In this document: positions 8,780-16,502 of the stretch, piece after piece | Layout: each line of letters begins with the position of its first letter | Position numbering within the stretch: position 1 is the stretch's first letter | Origin: Acidimicrobiia bacterium | Lineage (GTDB): Bacteria; Actinomycetota; Acidimicrobiia; Acidimicrobiales; JANYDT01 | Direction of reading: 5' to 3' | Assembly: GCA_025359845.1 (NCBI GenBank) | Contig: JANYDT010000009.1 | Span: 1 to 36,168, forward strand | Length of the DNA stretch: 36,168 nucleotides | Notes under the pieces: generated by a model | Database searches by the model: none | What the model was told of the DNA's origin: nothing | What the model saw: only the letters and a program-made list of their open reading frames with translations | Position numbers and translations under genes: made by a program

Positions 8780-10006
8780 CTACATGAACGGGGGCGGAGG
8801 CGGGGGCGGGGGCACGGGCGGCTGAAGGTCTTCTTCGGTTAGGCCGAGTTCGTCGACAAAGACGGCCCGGTTGTGGGCCCCGAGCGCCGGCACGGCTCCG
8901 ACTGTCGAAGTCTGGCCGTCGAAGCGCAGCGGAGGGACGGGAAATCGCAATGGACCGAGGGCGCCGCCGTCGATCTCGGTCCACCCGCCGGTGGCTCGTA
9001 AATGGGGATCCTCAAACAGGTCGGCCGCTGAGTTCACGGGGGTGGACGGAATGCCGCGACGCTGCGCCTCCTCGGCGAAGGCCTGCTTCGAGTAGCGCAT
9101 TGTCAGTGATTCCACCCAGGCGTCGATGGCCTCGACGTAAGGAGCGCGATCGGCGGGAGTGCCTTTGAAGAGGTCGAGGGTAACTTCGGTGATGCCGGTC
9201 TCATCGCTGATCCATTCGGCCAGCGCGTCCCATTGCCAAGGGGTAAAAGCCACGATCGTGACGGCACCGTCCTTGGTCGCGTAGTGGCCCATCGGGGGCG
9301 TCGCCCGGCGCTTGCCGCGACGCTCCTGCCACGCGCCAGTGTCCATCACGTAAGCCGGACTGGCTTCCATACTGACGCTAAGCACCGCCTCCTGTTGGGA
9401 GATGTCGACCATCTGGCCCATTCCGGTGCGGCGCCTGACCCGGAGCGCGACGAGCGTGCCCACCGAGGCGTTCATCGCGCTGGTCATATCGGCCAGCCCA
9501 CCGGCCGGCGCCAGAGGGGCGCGATCGGCGTCGCCCACGCTGGGCAACGCGCCGCTTACCGCCCAGCCGACGAGATCGGAGCCGAGCCAGCGCCGCCTCG
9601 GCCCGCTGCGGCCAAAGGGAGTCACGGAGGTGAACACCAACCGCGGGTTGATTTGTCGGAGATCCTCGTAGCCCAAGCCCAACGCCTCGAGGCGCCCTAC
9701 CGGCTCGGTGCTCAGCACCACGTCGACCCGTTCGACCAGGCGCCGCAAAAGCTCTCGCCCCTGAGGCGACGAGAGGGCGAGAGTAACCGAGCGTTTCCCT
9801 GCCGCCATAGCGACGAAGTGGGTGCTGACCTCGCCGACCGGCGTCATCACGAGCGGCGGTACCCGGCGCGCCGGTCCGCCATCAGGAGGCTCGACCAGGA
9901 TCACGTCTGCGCCCAGATCGGCGAACATCCGCCCGGCATAGCTCAAGGCCTCACCGCCGCCGAGGTCGAGCACGCGCACCCCGCTCAGCATGGCCAAGCC
10001 GGTCAA
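8780..10006 (-). CDS. CaiB/BaiF-type class III CoA-transferase
   Basis: 408 residues with the Rossmann-like start (LSGVRVLDLGGGEALSYAGRMFADLGADVILVEPP) and the catalytic Asp region GGLADMTSAM; Asp173 aligns with the nucleophilic Asp of formyl-CoA transferase. It moves CoA between carboxylic acids through an enzyme-aspartyl-CoA intermediate. The TTG start at 10006 overlaps the TGA of the upstream CaiB gene (TTGA) and follows a GGCGGG-rich stretch, indicating translational coupling; an internal ATG lies at 9991. The C-terminus ends in a polyproline tail (PPVPPPPPPPPFM, residues 396-408), unusual for the family. Paired overlapping CaiB genes suggest a heteromeric transferase. Confidence 0.88.
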   Translation of the reverse strand: MTGLAMLSGVRVLDLGGGEALSYAGRMFADLGADVILVEPPDGGPARRVPPLVMTPVGEVSTHFVAMAAGKRSVTLALSSPQGRELLRRLVERVDVVLSTEPVGRLEALGLGYEDLRQINPRLVFTSVTPFGRSGPRRRWLGSDLVGWAVSGALPSVGDADRAPLAPAGGLADMTSAMNASVGTLVALRVRRRTGMGQMVDISQQEAVLSVSMEASPAYVMDTGAWQERRGKRRATPPMGHYATKDGAVTIVAFTPWQWDALAEWISDETGITEVTLDLFKGTPADRAPYVEAIDAWVESLTMRYSKQAFAEEAQRRGIPSTPVNSAADLFEDPHLRATGGWTEIDGGALGPLRFPVPPLRFDGQTSTVGAVPALGAHNRAVFVDELGLTEEDLQPPVPPPPPPPPFM

Positions 10007-11403
10007 GGCGAACCCGCCTCAATAGGGACGGCAGTTTCGGATACCGCGTTGAGACTGGCGGTCTCTTCGTCCAGTCGTTCCATGAACAGGCGGGCCGGGT
10101 CGAAGCCGGCCTTCGGCCACGGTAAGCGCATCACCTTGTCGATCCAGTGCAGGTACGGACGCTCCAAGCGCACGTCATCGCGGGCCATGGCATGAACCGT
10201 TCCCGATGCGATCAGTCCATCGATCTCGGGCCAGTCGAGGTCGAGGACGTCGCGAAGGATGTCGCGGCTGTGCTCACCCAGGGCCGGGGCGGCCCGTTTG
10301 AGCGCCGACGGCGTGTCCGACAAGACGACCGCAGGCCCGAAGACGAGTTCGGCGCCGAAGCGGGCGCTGGGGAGGACCCGAAAGAAGTCTCGGGCGGCCA
10401 ACTGCGCATCGCCCAACAGGTCCCAACAATCGAGCACAGGCGCGGCCGCGACTCCGGCCTGTTGGAGTTCGGCGGCGGCCTCCCAGTCGGTACGGGCACT
10501 GGTCCAGGCGGCGACGCGTTCATCGAGTTCCGTCTGATGCAATTCCCTTCCCGCGATGGTGCGGAAACGGTCATCGGCCACCAACCCCTCAAGCCCCTCG
10601 GCCCCGGACAGGCCCGACCACATCTCGTCATCTCGGACCGAGATCGCCACCCATCGGTCCTCGCCCCGCGACGGATAGACACCGTGCGGAGCCCGCCCAA
10701 CGTGGCGGTTGCCATTGTGGGTGGGACTCGTTGCCCGCAGGCCGAACTCCACGATCGCCGGGGTGATGCAGGCCAACGCCATATGGTATTGCGGCAACTC
10801 AATGTGGCAACCCTGGCCGGTCTGGTCGCGGCGCTCCAGCGCGGCGAGGATGCCCACGGTGCCAGCTTGGGCCGATACGTAGTCGGGGTACGCAAACCCG
10901 ACTTGAACCGGGTCGCGATCGGGCCACCCGATCATTCGGTCGATGCCGGAAATGGCCGAGAGGTTCTGGCCCCACGTGCGATACGAACGGTATGGACCGC
11001 TGTCGCCGAACGCGGTCATGCTGATGTAGATGATGTCGGGCTTGATGGCCCGAATGGCTTCGTAGCTGATCTTTAAACGGGGGAGCACATCGGCGCTGAG
11101 GTTGGTAATAAACACATCCGAAGCGGCCACCAGCTTGGCGAAGACGGCGTACCCGTCGGGACTGTCGATTTCGAGGCCGATGCTGCGCTTGCCCGCGGAG
11201 GCAAAGTTCTGAGCGGCCATCGTGTCTTGACGGATTTCGGGGTCGTAGTCGGGCGGCACCCATCCGGCCGCGCTGGCCCGCAGCGAGTCGGGGCGGCGGC
11301 GCGACTCGACCCTGATCACGTCGGCCCCGAACTCGGCCATGTGACGAGCGGCGACCGGCGCGGCGATCCCGGTGCCCAGCTCGACTACGCGGATTCCCGC
11401 CAG
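10003..11403 (-). CDS. CaiB/BaiF-type class III CoA-transferase with no ordinary start codon
   Basis: The reading frame encodes a full CaiB protein of about 466 residues. The conserved first strand and glycine loop (APLAGIRVVELGTGIAAP) lie upstream of the first ATG (11340), so starting there would delete the CoA-binding beta strand. Going further upstream, the frame offers only CTG at 11403 and ATT at 11427 before a TGA at 11469-11467. No ATG, GTG or TTG exists. The catalytic Asp is probably in YPDYVSAQAG. A GTG at 11470, directly after the cyclase stop, lies one frame away, so a one-base indel would restore a normal start. The end coordinate given is the CTG. The 3' end overlaps the next CaiB by four bases. 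Confidence 0.8.
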   Translation of the reverse strand: MAGIRVVELGTGIAAPVAARHMAEFGADVIRVESRRRPDSLRASAAGWVPPDYDPEIRQDTMAAQNFASAGKRSIGLEIDSPDGYAVFAKLVAASDVFITNLSADVLPRLKISYEAIRAIKPDIIYISMTAFGDSGPYRSYRTWGQNLSAISGIDRMIGWPDRDPVQVGFAYPDYVSAQAGTVGILAALERRDQTGQGCHIELPQYHMALACITPAIVEFGLRATSPTHNGNRHVGRAPHGVYPSRGEDRWVAISVRDDEMWSGLSGAEGLEGLVADDRFRTIAGRELHQTELDERVAAWTSARTDWEAAAELQQAGVAAAPVLDCWDLLGDAQLAARDFFRVLPSARFGAELVFGPAVVLSDTPSALKRAAPALGEHSRDILRDVLDLDWPEIDGLIASGTVHAMARDDVRLERPYLHWIDKVMRLPWPKAGFDPARLFMERLDEETASLNAVSETAVPIEAGSP

Positions 11404-12446: not shown

Positions 12447-13724
12447 GTGAACGCACGCCCGCCCATCAGACGTCCGTTCTACGGATGGGTGATTGTCGGC
12501 GCGTCGTTCGTGCAATTGATGGCTACCTCGGCGTTCGTGTTTTATGGCCTGTCCATCTACCTCCGTGTACTCAACCAGCGCCGCGGCTTTTCGATCACCG
12601 CCATGTCGTTTGCGACCGCCCTGTTTTGGATTTCGTCAGGTCTGGCTGGGCTGGTGGTGGCCAGACTCATCGCGCAAGTGGATCCCCGCTACCTGGTTGC
12701 GCTCGGCGCGGTGGGCTCGTCATTGTGCATAGCCGCCCTCGGGCGGGTGACTTCGCTTTGGCAGGTGTTCGTGGTCTACGCGCTCTTCGGCGCGTTCTAC
12801 ACGCCGACGGCCGTGCTCGTCACCAACACCCTGATCACACGGTGGTTTCACCGGCGCCGTTCGGTCGCGTTGTCGGTCGCTACGACGGGGTTGTCGATGG
12901 GTGGAATCCTGCTCACGCCGATCGCGTCGCATCTGTTGCGTTCGCATTCGATCTCTTCGGCGATGACCCGTATTGCCGTCATGCAGTTCGTCGGGGTAAT
13001 CGTGATCCCGCTGCTCCTGCTGCGACCATGGCCCGCAGCGATGGGGCTGGCCCCCGACGGCGCCGCGGTGGGGCCGGTGGCGGCCAATGCGACCGGCACC
13101 GCCGCGGTGGCCCCTGGTATCCCTTTCGACCAGGCCATCGCCACGCTGACCTTCGTGGCCATCACCGCGACTTTCGCCGTGGCGCTATTGGGCCAAGTGG
13201 GCGCAATTTCCCAAATCGTCAAGTTGGCTTCGGAAAGGGCCGACGAGGCGACCGCGGGCCGCATCGTCTCCGTACTGGCGGCCTTCAGTGTCGCCGGTCG
13301 CTTGCTTGGAGGGGCGATCGTCCAACGCAGCTCGACCCGTCGGTTCGCGTTCCTGGCTCTCTTTTTCCAAGCGACCGGCTTGCTGTTCATGTCGTTCGCC
13401 AACTCGCGTGCCGCGATCTTGGCCGCCGCGGCAGTGTTCGGGCTGGGCGTCGGGAACGTGTTGTTGTTACATCCGTTACTACTGGCCGAGCTGTTCGGAG
13501 TCAGGGACTACCCTCGCATTTACGGTCGGTCGCAGCTCGCCGTATCGATGTCGATTGCCGCCGGTCCGCTCTCGATGGGATGGCTCCGCGATCACGCCGG
13601 CGGTTACCGCACTTCGTATCTCGTGGCGTTCGCCATGTCGATCGTCGCCATATCGCTCTTCTTCCGCTTCGGGCGTCCGTCCGATGAGCTGCTGCGCGCC
13701 GCGGAACTATCGGTATCGGCGTGA
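12447..13724 (+). CDS. MFS transporter (monocarboxylate/OFA-like)
   Basis: 425 residues with about 12 hydrophobic segments split by a loop near residues 190-225 (alanine/glycine-rich, PDGAAVGPVAAN). The N-terminal RRPFYGWVIVGASFV pattern and the cytoplasmic RWFHRRRSVALSVATTG loop are typical of the monocarboxylate-porter/OFA branch of the major facilitator superfamily. It is an inner-membrane secondary carrier; direction and substrate are not readable. The GTG start is at 12447. The stop codon overlaps the GTG of the next CMD-like gene, which itself overlaps the selenocysteine-candidate gene, so the three are probably co-translated and the carrier may serve the substrate of those enzymes. Confidence 0.85.
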   Translation: MNARPPIRRPFYGWVIVGASFVQLMATSAFVFYGLSIYLRVLNQRRGFSITAMSFATALFWISSGLAGLVVARLIAQVDPRYLVALGAVGSSLCIAALGRVTSLWQVFVVYALFGAFYTPTAVLVTNTLITRWFHRRRSVALSVATTGLSMGGILLTPIASHLLRSHSISSAMTRIAVMQFVGVIVIPLLLLRPWPAAMGLAPDGAAVGPVAANATGTAAVAPGIPFDQAIATLTFVAITATFAVALLGQVGAISQIVKLASERADEATAGRIVSVLAAFSVAGRLLGGAIVQRSSTRRFAFLALFFQATGLLFMSFANSRAAILAAAAVFGLGVGNVLLLHPLLLAELFGVRDYPRIYGRSQLAVSMSIAAGPLSMGWLRDHAGGYRTSYLVAFAMSIVAISLFFRFGRPSDELLRAAELSVSA

Positions 13725-14206
13725 CTGCGCCCGGTACGATGGAGCCCGTGACCTCAGTAGCCGATCCCCGTGTGCAGGTACTGGCCCGTCACCACGATGT
13801 GGCCACCTATTTGGACGATGCCCACGAAGCGGCGTGGCAAGCCGTCGATCCCGTGCTGCTGGAGCTGTGCCGACTGCGGGTAGCCATGTTGTTGCGCAAC
13901 CCGGCCGCGCTCTCGCTGCGCACCCCTGCGGCCGTTGCTGCGGGACTGGGGGAGGCGAAGATCGCCCAGCTTCGGAACTGGCCCACGTCAACATTGTATG
14001 ACGAACGCGACCGTGCTTGTCTGGCGTTCTGCGAACAGTTCGTCATCGACGTGGCCAACCTCACCGATGAACAGGGAGCGGCCGTATCTGTCCATCTCGG
14101 ACCGCAGGGTCTGGCCGACTTCGTGAGCGCACTATTGACCATCGAACAACGCCAGCGCCTCAGCCTGGCCTGGCCCCTGCTTCTCGATCTGGAGGAAGTC
14201 GCATGA
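13721..14206 (+). CDS. Carboxymuconolactone decarboxylase/AhpD-like protein lacking the CxxC motif
   Basis: Up to 161 residues. The framework (LLELCRLRVAMLLRN...WPTSTLYDERDRACLAFCEQFVIDVANLTDEQ) matches the CMD/AhpD-like helical fold, but the position of the redox CxxC is filled by NPAA, so it cannot run thiol chemistry alone. A GTG at 13721 overlaps the MFS stop (GTGA); ATG 13739 and GTG 13748 are alternative starts. Its TGA overlaps the ATG of the following paralogue (ATGA). From memory, tandem CMD genes of this kind, one without and one with the cysteine pair, recur in actinobacteria, so a two-subunit enzyme is likely, with this protein as structural or substrate-binding partner. Confidence 0.78.
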   Translation: MTAPGTMEPVTSVADPRVQVLARHHDVATYLDDAHEAAWQAVDPVLLELCRLRVAMLLRNPAALSLRTPAAVAAGLGEAKIAQLRNWPTSTLYDERDRACLAFCEQFVIDVANLTDEQGAAVSVHLGPQGLADFVSALLTIEQRQRLSLAWPLLLDLEEVA

Positions 14207-14706
14207 CTATCGTACGTGACCGCCGCATTCCCGAAGGCGTGCGCGCCGCTCCTGCTCTCAGCAAGGCGTTGAACCGATGGCAAGCCGCAGCAATGCGCTT
14301 GTCGAATCTCGACCCCGTAACCACCGAACTGGTGCGGTTGCGTTGCGCGCACCATCACGACTGCAAAACGTGACTTTCGGTGCGCTTGGCAGTTGCCAGG
14401 CAACAGGGACTCGACGAGACAATGGCGGCGAAGGCCGATCGCTATGAGGCCAGCGACCTGAGCGAGCGCCACAAGGTCGCGCTCCGTCTTGCTGATGCGA
14501 TGATGACCCAGCCGGGCGCCATCGACGACTCGTTACGAACCCAAGTGCGGGCCCACTTCACCGAGGACGAGATCATCGAACTCACCCTCGACGTCATGAA
14601 GTGGAACGCCCAGAAGATCTCGGTGGCGCTGGGCACGGATTTCGAAGTCCGCCCCGGCCAACTCGCCGACCTGCATTTCGACGAAAAGGGTCACGGCACG
14701 TTCTGA
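14203..14706 (+). CDS. Candidate selenoprotein: AhpD/CMD-family protein with CxxU (in-frame TGA at 14371-14373)
   Basis: Read through one TGA, this is a 167-residue CMD/AhpD-like protein. Upstream of the TGA it reads DPVTTELVRLRCAHHHDCKT and downstream LSVRLAVARQQGLDE, then YEASDLSERHKVALRLADA and ELTLDVMKWNAQKISVALG. Both halves are in one frame and belong to one domain. The TGA (codon 57) is exactly at the second Cys of the family's CxxC redox site, with Cys54 retained. A stem-loop with a G-containing apical loop begins just after it. Known biology: selenocysteine often replaces a redox Cys and is decoded at UGA with a SECIS hairpin. Ordinary termination would leave a 56-residue fragment, and reinitiation at GTG 14380 a 108-residue piece without the active site. 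The ATG overlaps the preceding paralogue's stop. Alternatives are a sequencing substitution or a fresh nonsense mutation. Confidence 0.72.
14378..14406 (+). promoter_or_regulatory. Putative bacterial SECIS element
   Basis: Directly downstream of the in-frame TGA, GCTTGGC (14384-14390) pairs with GCCAGGC (14395-14401) as a 7-bp stem with one G-U pair around the four-base loop AGTT. The stem can be extended below by G-C and U-A pairs and then C-G, through small internal loops. The apical loop begins 18 bases after the TGA and has G in its second position. This fits the general bacterial SECIS rule as I remember it: a small apical loop with G in the first two bases, 16-37 bases from UGA. Folding was done by eye; energy was not calculated. 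Confidence 0.55.
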
Positions 14707-14730: not shown

Positions 14731-15258
14731 TTACTCCGGGTAGCGCCACGGGCGTGCCGGTTGTATCGCTGACTCGTCGACAGTCCAATTGGGGATGGCG
14801 ATGCCGTCGCCGACCGGCGTGAAGACCATCCGCACCCGGGTGCCGATGCCGACGCTCGCGACGACATCCGGGGGAGCCAGAGTGCCTTCGGGTGTCACCA
14901 GGTTGGCGATCACGCGTAAGGCCTCATCCTCGCTGGGCACGCCCTTTTGCGTGTCCAGATCGACGAGCAGCACGAGATAGGGCGTGAACGCGCGAAACGC
15001 CGGTTGAATGGCGTGATGAACCTCGCCGTAGCTGTGAACCGTGCCGCGCCCCTCCACCTCGACCCAGTCGTATTCTCGGTCGCGCGTCCACGGACACGCC
15101 GTCGTGGGCGGATAACGCAGCAGCCCGGACTTGCGGCCTCGCTGCAGTCGGAAGACACCTTCCGCGCAGGACCGGAAGTAAGCGAGATTCTCGCTGTCCA
15201 CATCCTCGATCGCCAGGGGCATGCCCAGGTAGTCACCATTCACCATGACACTCACCAT
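14731..15258 (-). CDS. DUF35 OB-fold protein, acyl-CoA/thiolase partner with degenerate zinc ribbon
   Basis: About 175 residues. The C-terminal OB-fold is clear (EVEGRGTVHSYGEVHHAIQPAF...YLVLLVDLDTQ). The preceding rubredoxin-like zinc ribbon usually has two CxxC pairs. Here the first pair position reads LQRGRKSG and the second ACPWT, leaving one of four cysteines. DUF35 proteins bind thiolase-like Ltp enzymes, as in the ChsH2-Ltp2 steroid side-chain aldolase, and the gene overlaps the thiolase-like gene by a few bases, supporting a complex. The ATG at 15258 lies directly on the thiolase's last codons; ATG 15246 is an alternative, 12 bases after AAGGG. Confidence 0.82.
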   Translation of the reverse strand: MVSVMVNGDYLGMPLAIEDVDSENLAYFRSCAEGVFRLQRGRKSGLLRYPPTTACPWTRDREYDWVEVEGRGTVHSYGEVHHAIQPAFRAFTPYLVLLVDLDTQKGVPSEDEALRVIANLVTPEGTLAPPDVVASVGIGTRVRMVFTPVGDGIAIPNWTVDESAIQPARPWRYPE

Positions 15259-16502
15259 CCCTTCTGCAAGACCATGGCCGAAGTGGTGGCCGGAGTGGCC
15301 CACCCCAGGTTGGCGGTGAGTTCCGCCTTCTGCACTTGGCGGCATCCGCCCTCTCGGTAGTCGTAGGTGTGCGTCCGCCGCCCTTCGCTATCGACCGGAC
15401 ACGAGTCGTCGGCCTCATGGCGGAGTTGACGCACGTTCTCGATGACCATGCTCATGCCGTGCGTGTAGCCCTCGCACAAGTGCCCACCCGACGTGTTGTT
15501 CGGCCTCGCCCCGCCCAGCTCGATGATGCCGGAGGAGACATACTCACCCCCTTCGCCCTTCTTGCAGAATCCGTACTCCTCGAGCTGGAGCATCGCCGTG
15601 AACGTGAAGGCGTCGTAGGATCCGGTGATGTCGATCTCGTCGGGTCCGACGCCGGCGTTGGGCCACAGAATCTCCTTGGCGTAGTACCCGGCTACGCGAC
15701 TGATCGGCCCGTGCTGGTAGTGCATGTCGATACGAGGCTTGCTACAACGTCCGACCACACTGCGGATTTGCACCATGCGCTGGCGCATGTCGCGGGCCCG
15801 TTCGGTGGTCGTCACGATGATGCAAGTGGCGTTGTCGGTCTCCACGCAGCAGTCGAGCAGATGCAGCGGTTTGCAGACAATCCGGCTCGACACGACGTCA
15901 TCGACCGTGACGCGCTTGCGGTAATAGGCCTTGGGATTGTTCGAAGCGTGCTTCGAATGGGCCACTTTCACGCTTGCGACCTGCTCAGGAGTTGTGCCGT
16001 AGTCGTACATATGGCGCATGAAGGTCGGCGCGAACCATTGCCCCGCGCTGCTCCACCCATAGGTGCGGCCGTGCAGCGCGTCGCCGGTGATGGGAGCCGC
16101 CGCTCGCGCCCCCGTTCCGCCGATGCGCACTTGTGAGAACCCGTTCATTGATCGGAAGATAGCGACGGTCTTGCACATACCGGCCTCGATCACGCCGATG
16201 GCGATACCGACCAGGGCCTCGGTCGAAGAGCCACCCCCCAAACAGTCCATGTAGAAGTTGAGCCGGATGCCGAGGTCGCCGGCCACCATGGGCGAAGATG
16301 TCGAGTCGTTGCCGGTGTAGGAGAGCATCCCGTCGACATCGCTCGCATCGAGGCCGGCGTCGTCGAGCGCGTTGCCCATGGCCCACGTGGCCAGATTGCG
16401 GGTGGTCTCGTTCGAACCTCGTCGATACGTCGTCTCCCCGATACCGGCGATCGCGTACTTGTTGCGCAGAAAGGCCGGCGTGCTGCTGTCAATATCGTTC
16501 AT
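15252..16502 (-). CDS. Thiolase-like lipid-transfer protein (Ltp2/SCPx-type, probable retro-aldolase)
   Basis: 416 residues with thiolase-fold features: YAIAGIGETTYRRGS at the N-terminus, the nucleophile-elbow region DCLGGGSSTEAL where the usual catalytic Cys is Gly/Ser, a YDAFTFTAMLQLEEYGFC segment, and the C-terminal GGHLCEGYTHGM. Loss of the thiolase Cys with retention of the Tyr and His motifs is typical of Ltp2-like enzymes, which with a DUF35 protein cleave steroid side chains by retro-aldol reaction. That reaction is inferred by family and by the overlapping DUF35 gene. The ATG is at 16502. The 117-base gap upstream to the DUF385 gene could hold a promoter, but no clear hexamers were found. 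Confidence 0.85.
   Translation of the reverse strand: MNDIDSSTPAFLRNKYAIAGIGETTYRRGSNETTRNLATWAMGNALDDAGLDASDVDGMLSYTGNDSTSSPMVAGDLGIRLNFYMDCLGGGSSTEALVGIAIGVIEAGMCKTVAIFRSMNGFSQVRIGGTGARAAAPITGDALHGRTYGWSSAGQWFAPTFMRHMYDYGTTPEQVASVKVAHSKHASNNPKAYYRKRVTVDDVVSSRIVCKPLHLLDCCVETDNATCIIVTTTERARDMRQRMVQIRSVVGRCSKPRIDMHYQHGPISRVAGYYAKEILWPNAGVGPDEIDITGSYDAFTFTAMLQLEEYGFCKKGEGGEYVSSGIIELGGARPNNTSGGHLCEGYTHGMSMVIENVRQLRHEADDSCPVDSEGRRTHTYDYREGGCRQVQKAELTANLGWATPATTSAMVLQKGW

Follow-up and report, generated by a model that had tools for sequence, protein, structure and literature searches.

The locus described here raises the question of how a TGA codon in the middle of a CMD/AhpD-family gene is read, and what kind of enzyme the gene would provide. 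In the window, which is the whole stretch of 36,168 nucleotides analysed, the span from ATG 14203 to TGA 14706 forms one frame in which codon 57 is the only internal TGA; this frame, proposed in a sequence-only reading as a complete CMD/AhpD protein, was confirmed by translation and by Pfam (Table 1). PF02627 (CMD) matched the product, CMD2-U, with 32.4 bits (gathering cut-off 23) over residues 17-76, a region that spans the TGA. In the frame translation, codon 57 lies in the context ...RCAHHHDCKT-U-LSVR..., with Cys54 retained, and relatives carry either Cys or TGA at the same codon, in agreement with the claim that the TGA replaces the second Cys in a CxxC motif. A gene caller halting at the TGA would start CMD2-U downstream of its active site. 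The part from GTG 14380 alone, a start that had been expected to lose the active site, gave no Pfam match at E 0.001. We consider it very probable (about 96%) that the codon-57 TGA is decoded as selenocysteine (Sec) in a CMD-fold redox protein. Sec insertion in the cell is what we infer from the Sec codon, the machinery, the SECIS and the conserved site, all of them found in the sequence.

Table 1. Features of the CMD1/CMD2-U locus, with coordinates in the window.
Feature	Coordinates	Strand	Description
MFS transporter	12447..13724	+	overlaps CMD1 start by GTGA
CMD1	13721..14206	+	redox-dead CMD-family partner; ATGA overlap with the start of CMD2-U; PF02627 24 bits, cut-off 23
CMD2-U	14203..14706	+	predicted AhpD/CMD-family selenoprotein, 167 residues, Sec57, CxxU
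In-frame TGA, predicted to be read as Sec	14371..14373	+	codon 57 of CMD2-U
Predicted bacterial SECIS apical stem-loop	14385..14400	+	6-bp stem 14385-14390/14395-14400, loop AGUU 14391-14394

The genome carrying CMD2-U, a draft of 4.69 Mb in 254 contigs with 93% completeness, possesses the complete set of Sec genes (selA, selB, selD and tRNA-Sec) that had been suggested as a check. The tRNA-Sec (68.3 bits, cut-off 47) has the anticodon TCA. The selA gene was detected with 382.5 bits over its frame, and selB (259.5 bits, cut-off 242.25) follows immediately after it on the same contig. The selD gene (G000:C50:4617-5555, L014/L055; 362.8 bits) has its own internal TGA at the catalytic Sec site (..SHGAGUACKLG..). 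Across genomes, a selA match at E 0.001 was present in 31 of the 32 with a one-TGA CMD match versus 57 of the 116 others (Fisher p 1.3e-7), in sets compiled manually, with the TGA position verified for the matches with loci only and with some of the counted selA matches partial. The exception without a selA match, G001, is 78% complete and has a tRNA-Sec (67.3 bits).

Two further CMD/AhpD genes of the source genome also have TGA at the second Cys, which makes three of its fourteen CMD matches in total. One encodes CHYU (G000:C117:4660-4842, L142) and the other CFYU (G000:C56:10024-10257, L144), both with a His four residues downstream, like classic AhpD; they are probable further selenoproteins of the same genome. 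More distant CMD proteins from the same order are CxxU as well (L028, L032, L033, L035, L038, L042, L043 and L045), with hairpin-like folds downstream of the TGA, and CMD selenoproteins seem to be abundant in this bacterial order.

CMD2-U matches at E 1e-6 were found in 52 of the 148 genomes searched, the source genome being among the 148. Thirty loci were inspected, including that of the window; a single TGA was present in twenty-one, in every case at the second Cys, and CxxC in nine. The eight best-scoring relatives of CMD2-U, with 44-58% identity, all possess the TGA. Scans of genome and viral contig sets with the single CMD2-U protein gave no close relatives, and an alignment scan then gave 78 related loci out of 172 pattern matches, a biased sample as one peptide pattern was used. 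At least five of the eight best-scoring relatives are also among these 78 loci, so that the sets overlap. The 78 loci belong mainly to Acidimicrobiales and other Actinomycetota, and also to Chloroflexi (Dehalococcoidia, Tepidiformaceae). Some of them are titled Bifidobacterium breve, names which look wrong: in the tree L064 groups with Acidimicrobiales, and L090, L091, L093, L094 and L131 group with other actinobacterial MAGs.

At the codon-57 position, TGA is present in 35 of the 78 related loci and Cys (TGC/TGT) in 40, and the site is absent from three. L130, L132 and L133, whose matches lack the CxxC region or motif, were left out of the site count and of the tree. The match in L130, from Rhodococcus, covers residues 65-146, all beyond the active site, and this locus is possibly a broken or frameshifted copy. 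The alignment of homologues proposed earlier thus has Cys members with Cys at codon 57 and other genomes with TGA there. All 35 TGA-bearing loci share the codon; their matched regions are free of any other stop and continue for at least 88 codons past the TGA. The argument that the placement of the TGA is beyond chance is borne out by these loci, and in place of random disruptions the close relatives with TGA have no other stops in the match. Identity to CMD2-U before and after the TGA is 54/58% in L017, 61/58% in L018, 55/49% in L022 and 51/44% in L023, being somewhat lower past the TGA than ahead of it in the last three. The tree of the related loci, built with a quick method and accompanied by long-branch warnings, needs three Sec/Cys changes and cannot separate gain from loss.

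Downstream of the TGA, a hairpin of the bacterial SECIS type is predicted. The bSECIS model describes a loop of 3-9 nt with a G in the first two places, a stem of 4-16 bp, a distance of 16-37 nt from the UGA and an MFE of at most -7.5 (PMC13188914). The CMD2-U hairpin, with 17 nt between UGA and loop and an MFE of -14.9 kcal/mol over the 42 nt that follow the UGA, agrees with this model. Taken alone it does not reach significance (z -1.43; an equally good fold is seen in 16 of 200 shuffles), and Rfam at gathering thresholds gave zero matches on the whole window. Because single-sequence folding z-scores were mostly weak, the case for the hairpin is built on covariation and a control with Cys sequences.

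Covariation was evaluated with five measures on a set of 36 sequences (32 distinct) against 500 shuffles. In the stem, paired cells amount to 90.1% (shuffled mean 74.9), double changes occur in 40 cells (13.0 in the shuffled sets), spread over four of the six pairs, and the covariation score is 0.570 (0.242 shuffled; 0.077-0.278 in versions with a slid partner); each of these values was reached by none of the 500 shuffles. The same is true for four of the five measures altogether, and sliding the partner lowers all five; for the fifth measure, the number of pairs changed on both sides, 323 of the 500 shuffles attained the observed value of 4. The control with Cys sequences matters because the hairpin sits within coding sequence. 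All six stem pairs were found in 20 of the 32 distinct TGA sequences versus none of the 40 Cys sequences at the corresponding position, and at least five pairs in 25 of the 32 versus 3 of the 40. Seven of the 32 distinct rows, from Chloroflexi, lose two of the six pairs; judged by eye, their stem would be formed in a register shifted by one base.

The TGA is one base away from TGC/TGT and the source is a draft assembly of 254 contigs, from which one might suspect an ordinary Cys CMD gene hit by a nonsense mutation or misread in sequencing; nevertheless, this has a negligible probability, since the sequence remains protein-like past the TGA, the same-codon TGA is present in 35 related loci and in the eight best-scoring relatives (at least five of the eight shared with the set of 78 related loci), and its recurrence together with the covarying SECIS refutes mutation or error. 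Read error is excluded in practice because other genomes carry the same TGA, and given the TGA recurrence, the lack of other stops and the SECIS, we discarded sequencing error, pseudogene and chance stop. Just as improbable is an altered code, in which TGA would specify a different amino acid or be passed by general readthrough. The frame of CMD2-U is open under any reading of TGA; however, the full Sec machinery is present in the genome, TGA also terminates both the CMD2-U gene and the upstream CMD1 gene, relatives without TGA have Cys at this position in 40 of the 40 loci that possess the site, and the hairpin accompanies the TGA members.

With the TGA taken as a Sec codon, the residues around it bear on the chemistry. 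Glu at -15 and Cys at -3 from the Sec/Cys position are present in all 75 loci with the site, and the +4 residue is Arg in 74 of them and Leu in one. Thr is found directly ahead of Sec in 34 of the 35 Sec loci, and Arg-Ile/Leu/Val ahead of Cys in 37 of the 40 Cys loci. According to the available text of PMC3141380, the relay of AhpD consists of Glu, Cys, His/Tyr, Cys and His, and the +4 residue in AhpD and PA0269 is the relay His. The full AhpD relay site was not found in the CMD2-U family, in which Glu and Cys/Sec are kept, the relay His is replaced by Arg or, in one locus, by Leu, and Thr occupies the His/Tyr position in 34 of the 35 Sec loci. As Arg replaces the relay His, the chemistry may differ from that of AhpD, and AhpD-like chemistry of CMD2-U is therefore uncertain. 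By structural model, of modest confidence, CMD2-U would have an AhpD-like fold: the model of the Sec domain, with Sec entered as Cys (pLDDT 74), matches the AhpD-like PA0269 and Atu0492, which are also matched by sequence. The model of a natural Sec fusion, described below (pLDDT 72, pTM 0.78), weakly matches single AhpD domains (best E 6.3e-3) and Sestrin2.

We propose that CMD2-U acts as a CxxU-type thiol/selenol oxidoreductase with the AhpD/CMD fold, in which Sec57 would take over from the second Cys of AhpD; Glu42 occupies the position of the relay Glu and Arg61 that of the relay His. The protein would most likely reduce a hydroperoxide or a similar oxidant. The oxidant would oxidise Sec57, the oxidised Sec57 and Cys54 would then form a selenylsulfide, and a cellular thiol reductant would open it. 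Peroxidase-type chemistry is somewhat favoured by us, and the substrate and the reductant named here are those that we infer.

The conserved unit at this locus is the CMD1/CMD2-U pair, of which CMD1 was absent from the sequence-only reading. CMD1 does not possess the CxxC/U motif; in nine CMD1 sequences inspected by eye, the second active-site Cys/Sec is present in none and the first Cys in six. CMD1 lies upstream of the Sec gene in eight of eight ortholog loci. A CMD1 profile detected a partner beside or fused to the CMD2 gene in 73 of the 78 related loci, 49 of them split and 24 in the same open frame, which is the script rule for 'fused'; the profile was made from nine sequences, so that at least five loci (L074, L075, L077, L082 and L085) match by construction. 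Some partner matches of the fused class are weak (L113, L116 and L118, at E 2e-3 to 1e-2), and L126 and L127, scored as partnerless by the script, yet have a diverged first domain visible by eye. Most of the fusions (22) are Cys proteins and two are Sec fusions (L065 and L066); the dead domain comes first in them.

The partner pairing and the natural fusions argue for one functional unit, and the fusions suggest a two-part enzyme. CMD1, translated just ahead of CMD2-U and ATGA-coupled to it, would most likely form a heteromer with CMD2-U and shape or regulate its site. We regard the formation of a CMD1-CMD2 complex as likely, on account of gene pairing and fusion. The opposite reading accepts the selenoprotein and takes CMD1 and CMD2-U as mere neighbours, not as one enzyme. 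It appears unlikely, as the partner recurs in 73 of 78 loci and shares the frame in 24, the Sec fusions L065 and L066 included, and the pairing of CMD1 and CMD2 persists in varied surroundings.

The sequence-only reading had also placed CMD2-U in a transporter operon. An MFS gene is present upstream, but the immediate upstream neighbour of CMD2-U is CMD1, and the MFS gene comes before CMD1; the MFS gene and the pair are probably in the same operon here. MFS homologues with 23-27% identity adjoin the pair in nine of nine Chloroflexi loci, downstream and on the other strand: L061, L067-L073 and L076 have one or two MFS genes downstream, from about 3573 on, on the minus strand. No MFS was found at E 0.001 in the other 69 related loci, with flanks of 3 kb or less. 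A link to transport is possible; MFS genes are common.

The comparison of 21 window genes with eight ortholog stretches, some of which end close to the pair at a contig edge, revealed no conserved third gene. Only CMD1 and CMD2 recur, the sole further match being a weak one of a distant window gene, in L048. Clustering of mechanically picked neighbour ORFs, with the two largest clusters containing 51 and 30 loci, missed the MFS gene of the window, a longer overlapping frame being picked instead. Between 11300 and 14800, the promoter scan detected no promoter-like sites (shuffled mean 0.5) and the terminator scan one terminator-like site (shuffled mean 2.2). The intervals 8780-11340 and 14731-16502 contain genes for two family III CoA-transferases, an OB-fold ChsH2-like protein and a thiolase-like protein. 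The region around the pair is suggestive of acyl-CoA catabolism.

These surroundings would fit a CMD-type enzyme of catabolism, such as a decarboxylase or a dehalogenase, with Sec in a non-peroxidase step and a substrate perhaps imported by the neighbouring MFS carrier. Besides the CoA-transferases, the thiolase-like and the OB-fold ChsH2-like proteins and the MFS carrier, this reading can call on the MFS genes adjoining the pair in all nine Chloroflexi loci, on the debrominase Bmp8 among the solved relatives, and on the replacement of the relay His by Arg. However, of the tested window neighbours only CMD1 recurs in the eight ortholog stretches, apart from the weak match in L048, the 69 other loci have no MFS match within the scope given above, and CxxC/CxxU suits redox chemistry. 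We consider a catabolic role of the pair doubtful.

Taken as a redox selenoprotein, CMD2-U belongs to a kind that is already known. The sequence-only reading pointed to AhpD-like selenoproteins from environmental surveys, and the Sargasso Sea survey of 2005 indeed contains CxxU selenoproteins, 27 AhpD-like and 4 CMD-domain sequences, according to the accessible text of PMC1088965. CxxU AhpD-like/CMD selenoproteins are also listed in reviews of 2022 and 2026, and a Geobacter CMD protein is among selenoprotein predictions, as given in the available portions of PMC9312934, PMC13188914 (Table 1) and PMC1242214. The earlier proposal of a new selenoprotein has to be toned down, the CxxU CMD/AhpD kind being known since 2005; CMD2-U, of the two-part subfamily, passes no NCBIfam model. 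Similar to CMD2-U, the Sargasso CMD/AhpD-like selenoproteins have PF02627/COG2128, CxxU, a bacterial SECIS and Cys homologues. The available part of PMC1088965 mentions no redox-dead partner for them, whereas CMD2-U has CMD1. Some Sargasso sequences may belong to the CMD2-U subfamily.

No NCBIfam model reaches its cut-off for CMD2-U or for the Sec fusion L065; other subfamily members were compared with NCBIfam by E-values only. The best match of CMD2-U is NF053654, the YciW-related (seleno)protein, with 47.3 bits against a cut-off of 310 and coverage of model positions 60-160 of 179 only; nine of nine members of alignment A2 match this model at E 0.01. NF041047, the GSU3128 family (seleno)protein, is a CxxU selenoprotein family described as 'distant AhpD homolog' (PMC13188914). 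All nine A2 members match it weakly, and CMD2-U scores 23.1 bits, below the cut-off of 110. With TIGR01926, a peroxidase-related model that includes AhpD-like selenoproteins, CMD2-U scores 19.5 bits, below the cut-off of 81.8. M. tuberculosis AhpD and P. aeruginosa PA0269 share with CMD2-U the helical fold, the Glu and the CxxC helix-hairpin, and the top structure matches of the CMD2-U model include PA0269-type entries. CMD2-U differs from both in having Sec for the second Cys, Arg for the relay His, Thr for the relay His/Tyr, and a separate redox-dead partner.

No two-part CMD unit is named in the available part of Table 1 of PMC13188914, nor by title in the literature searches, and among titles and the starts of abstracts no selenoprotein paper was found for Acidimicrobiia. 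The locus adds a well-supported bacterial selenoprotein subfamily, whose Sec/Cys and split/fused variants are natural pairs in which the benefit of selenium and the role of the dead partner in an AhpD-type enzyme can be tested.

A comparable layout among known proteins is that of Sestrin2, which pairs an active AhpD-like domain with a modified one that lost the motif, according to the accessible text of PMC4674687. Human Sestrin2 matched the fused model at E 0.019, with TM 0.47 and rmsd 16, values too weak to rely on, and homology to Sestrins was rejected, the fused model having no match with an E-value of 0.001 or lower. The order in Sestrin2 is reversed relative to the fusions, with the active domain first, and it has no Sec, whereas CMD1 and CMD2-U are split genes in the window. 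Nothing in the comparison points to a common descent of the pairing, and the likeness of the active-plus-dead layout is an analogy. Tentatively, the pair may represent a two-part selenoenzyme, hitherto undescribed, that occurs in Acidimicrobiales and in some Chloroflexi, with coupled pairs and fusions and with Cys and Sec versions in one family, in which the pseudoenzyme CMD1 would be the obligate partner, tuning or sensing for the Sec-bearing CMD2, as a bacterial analogue of the Sestrin layout.
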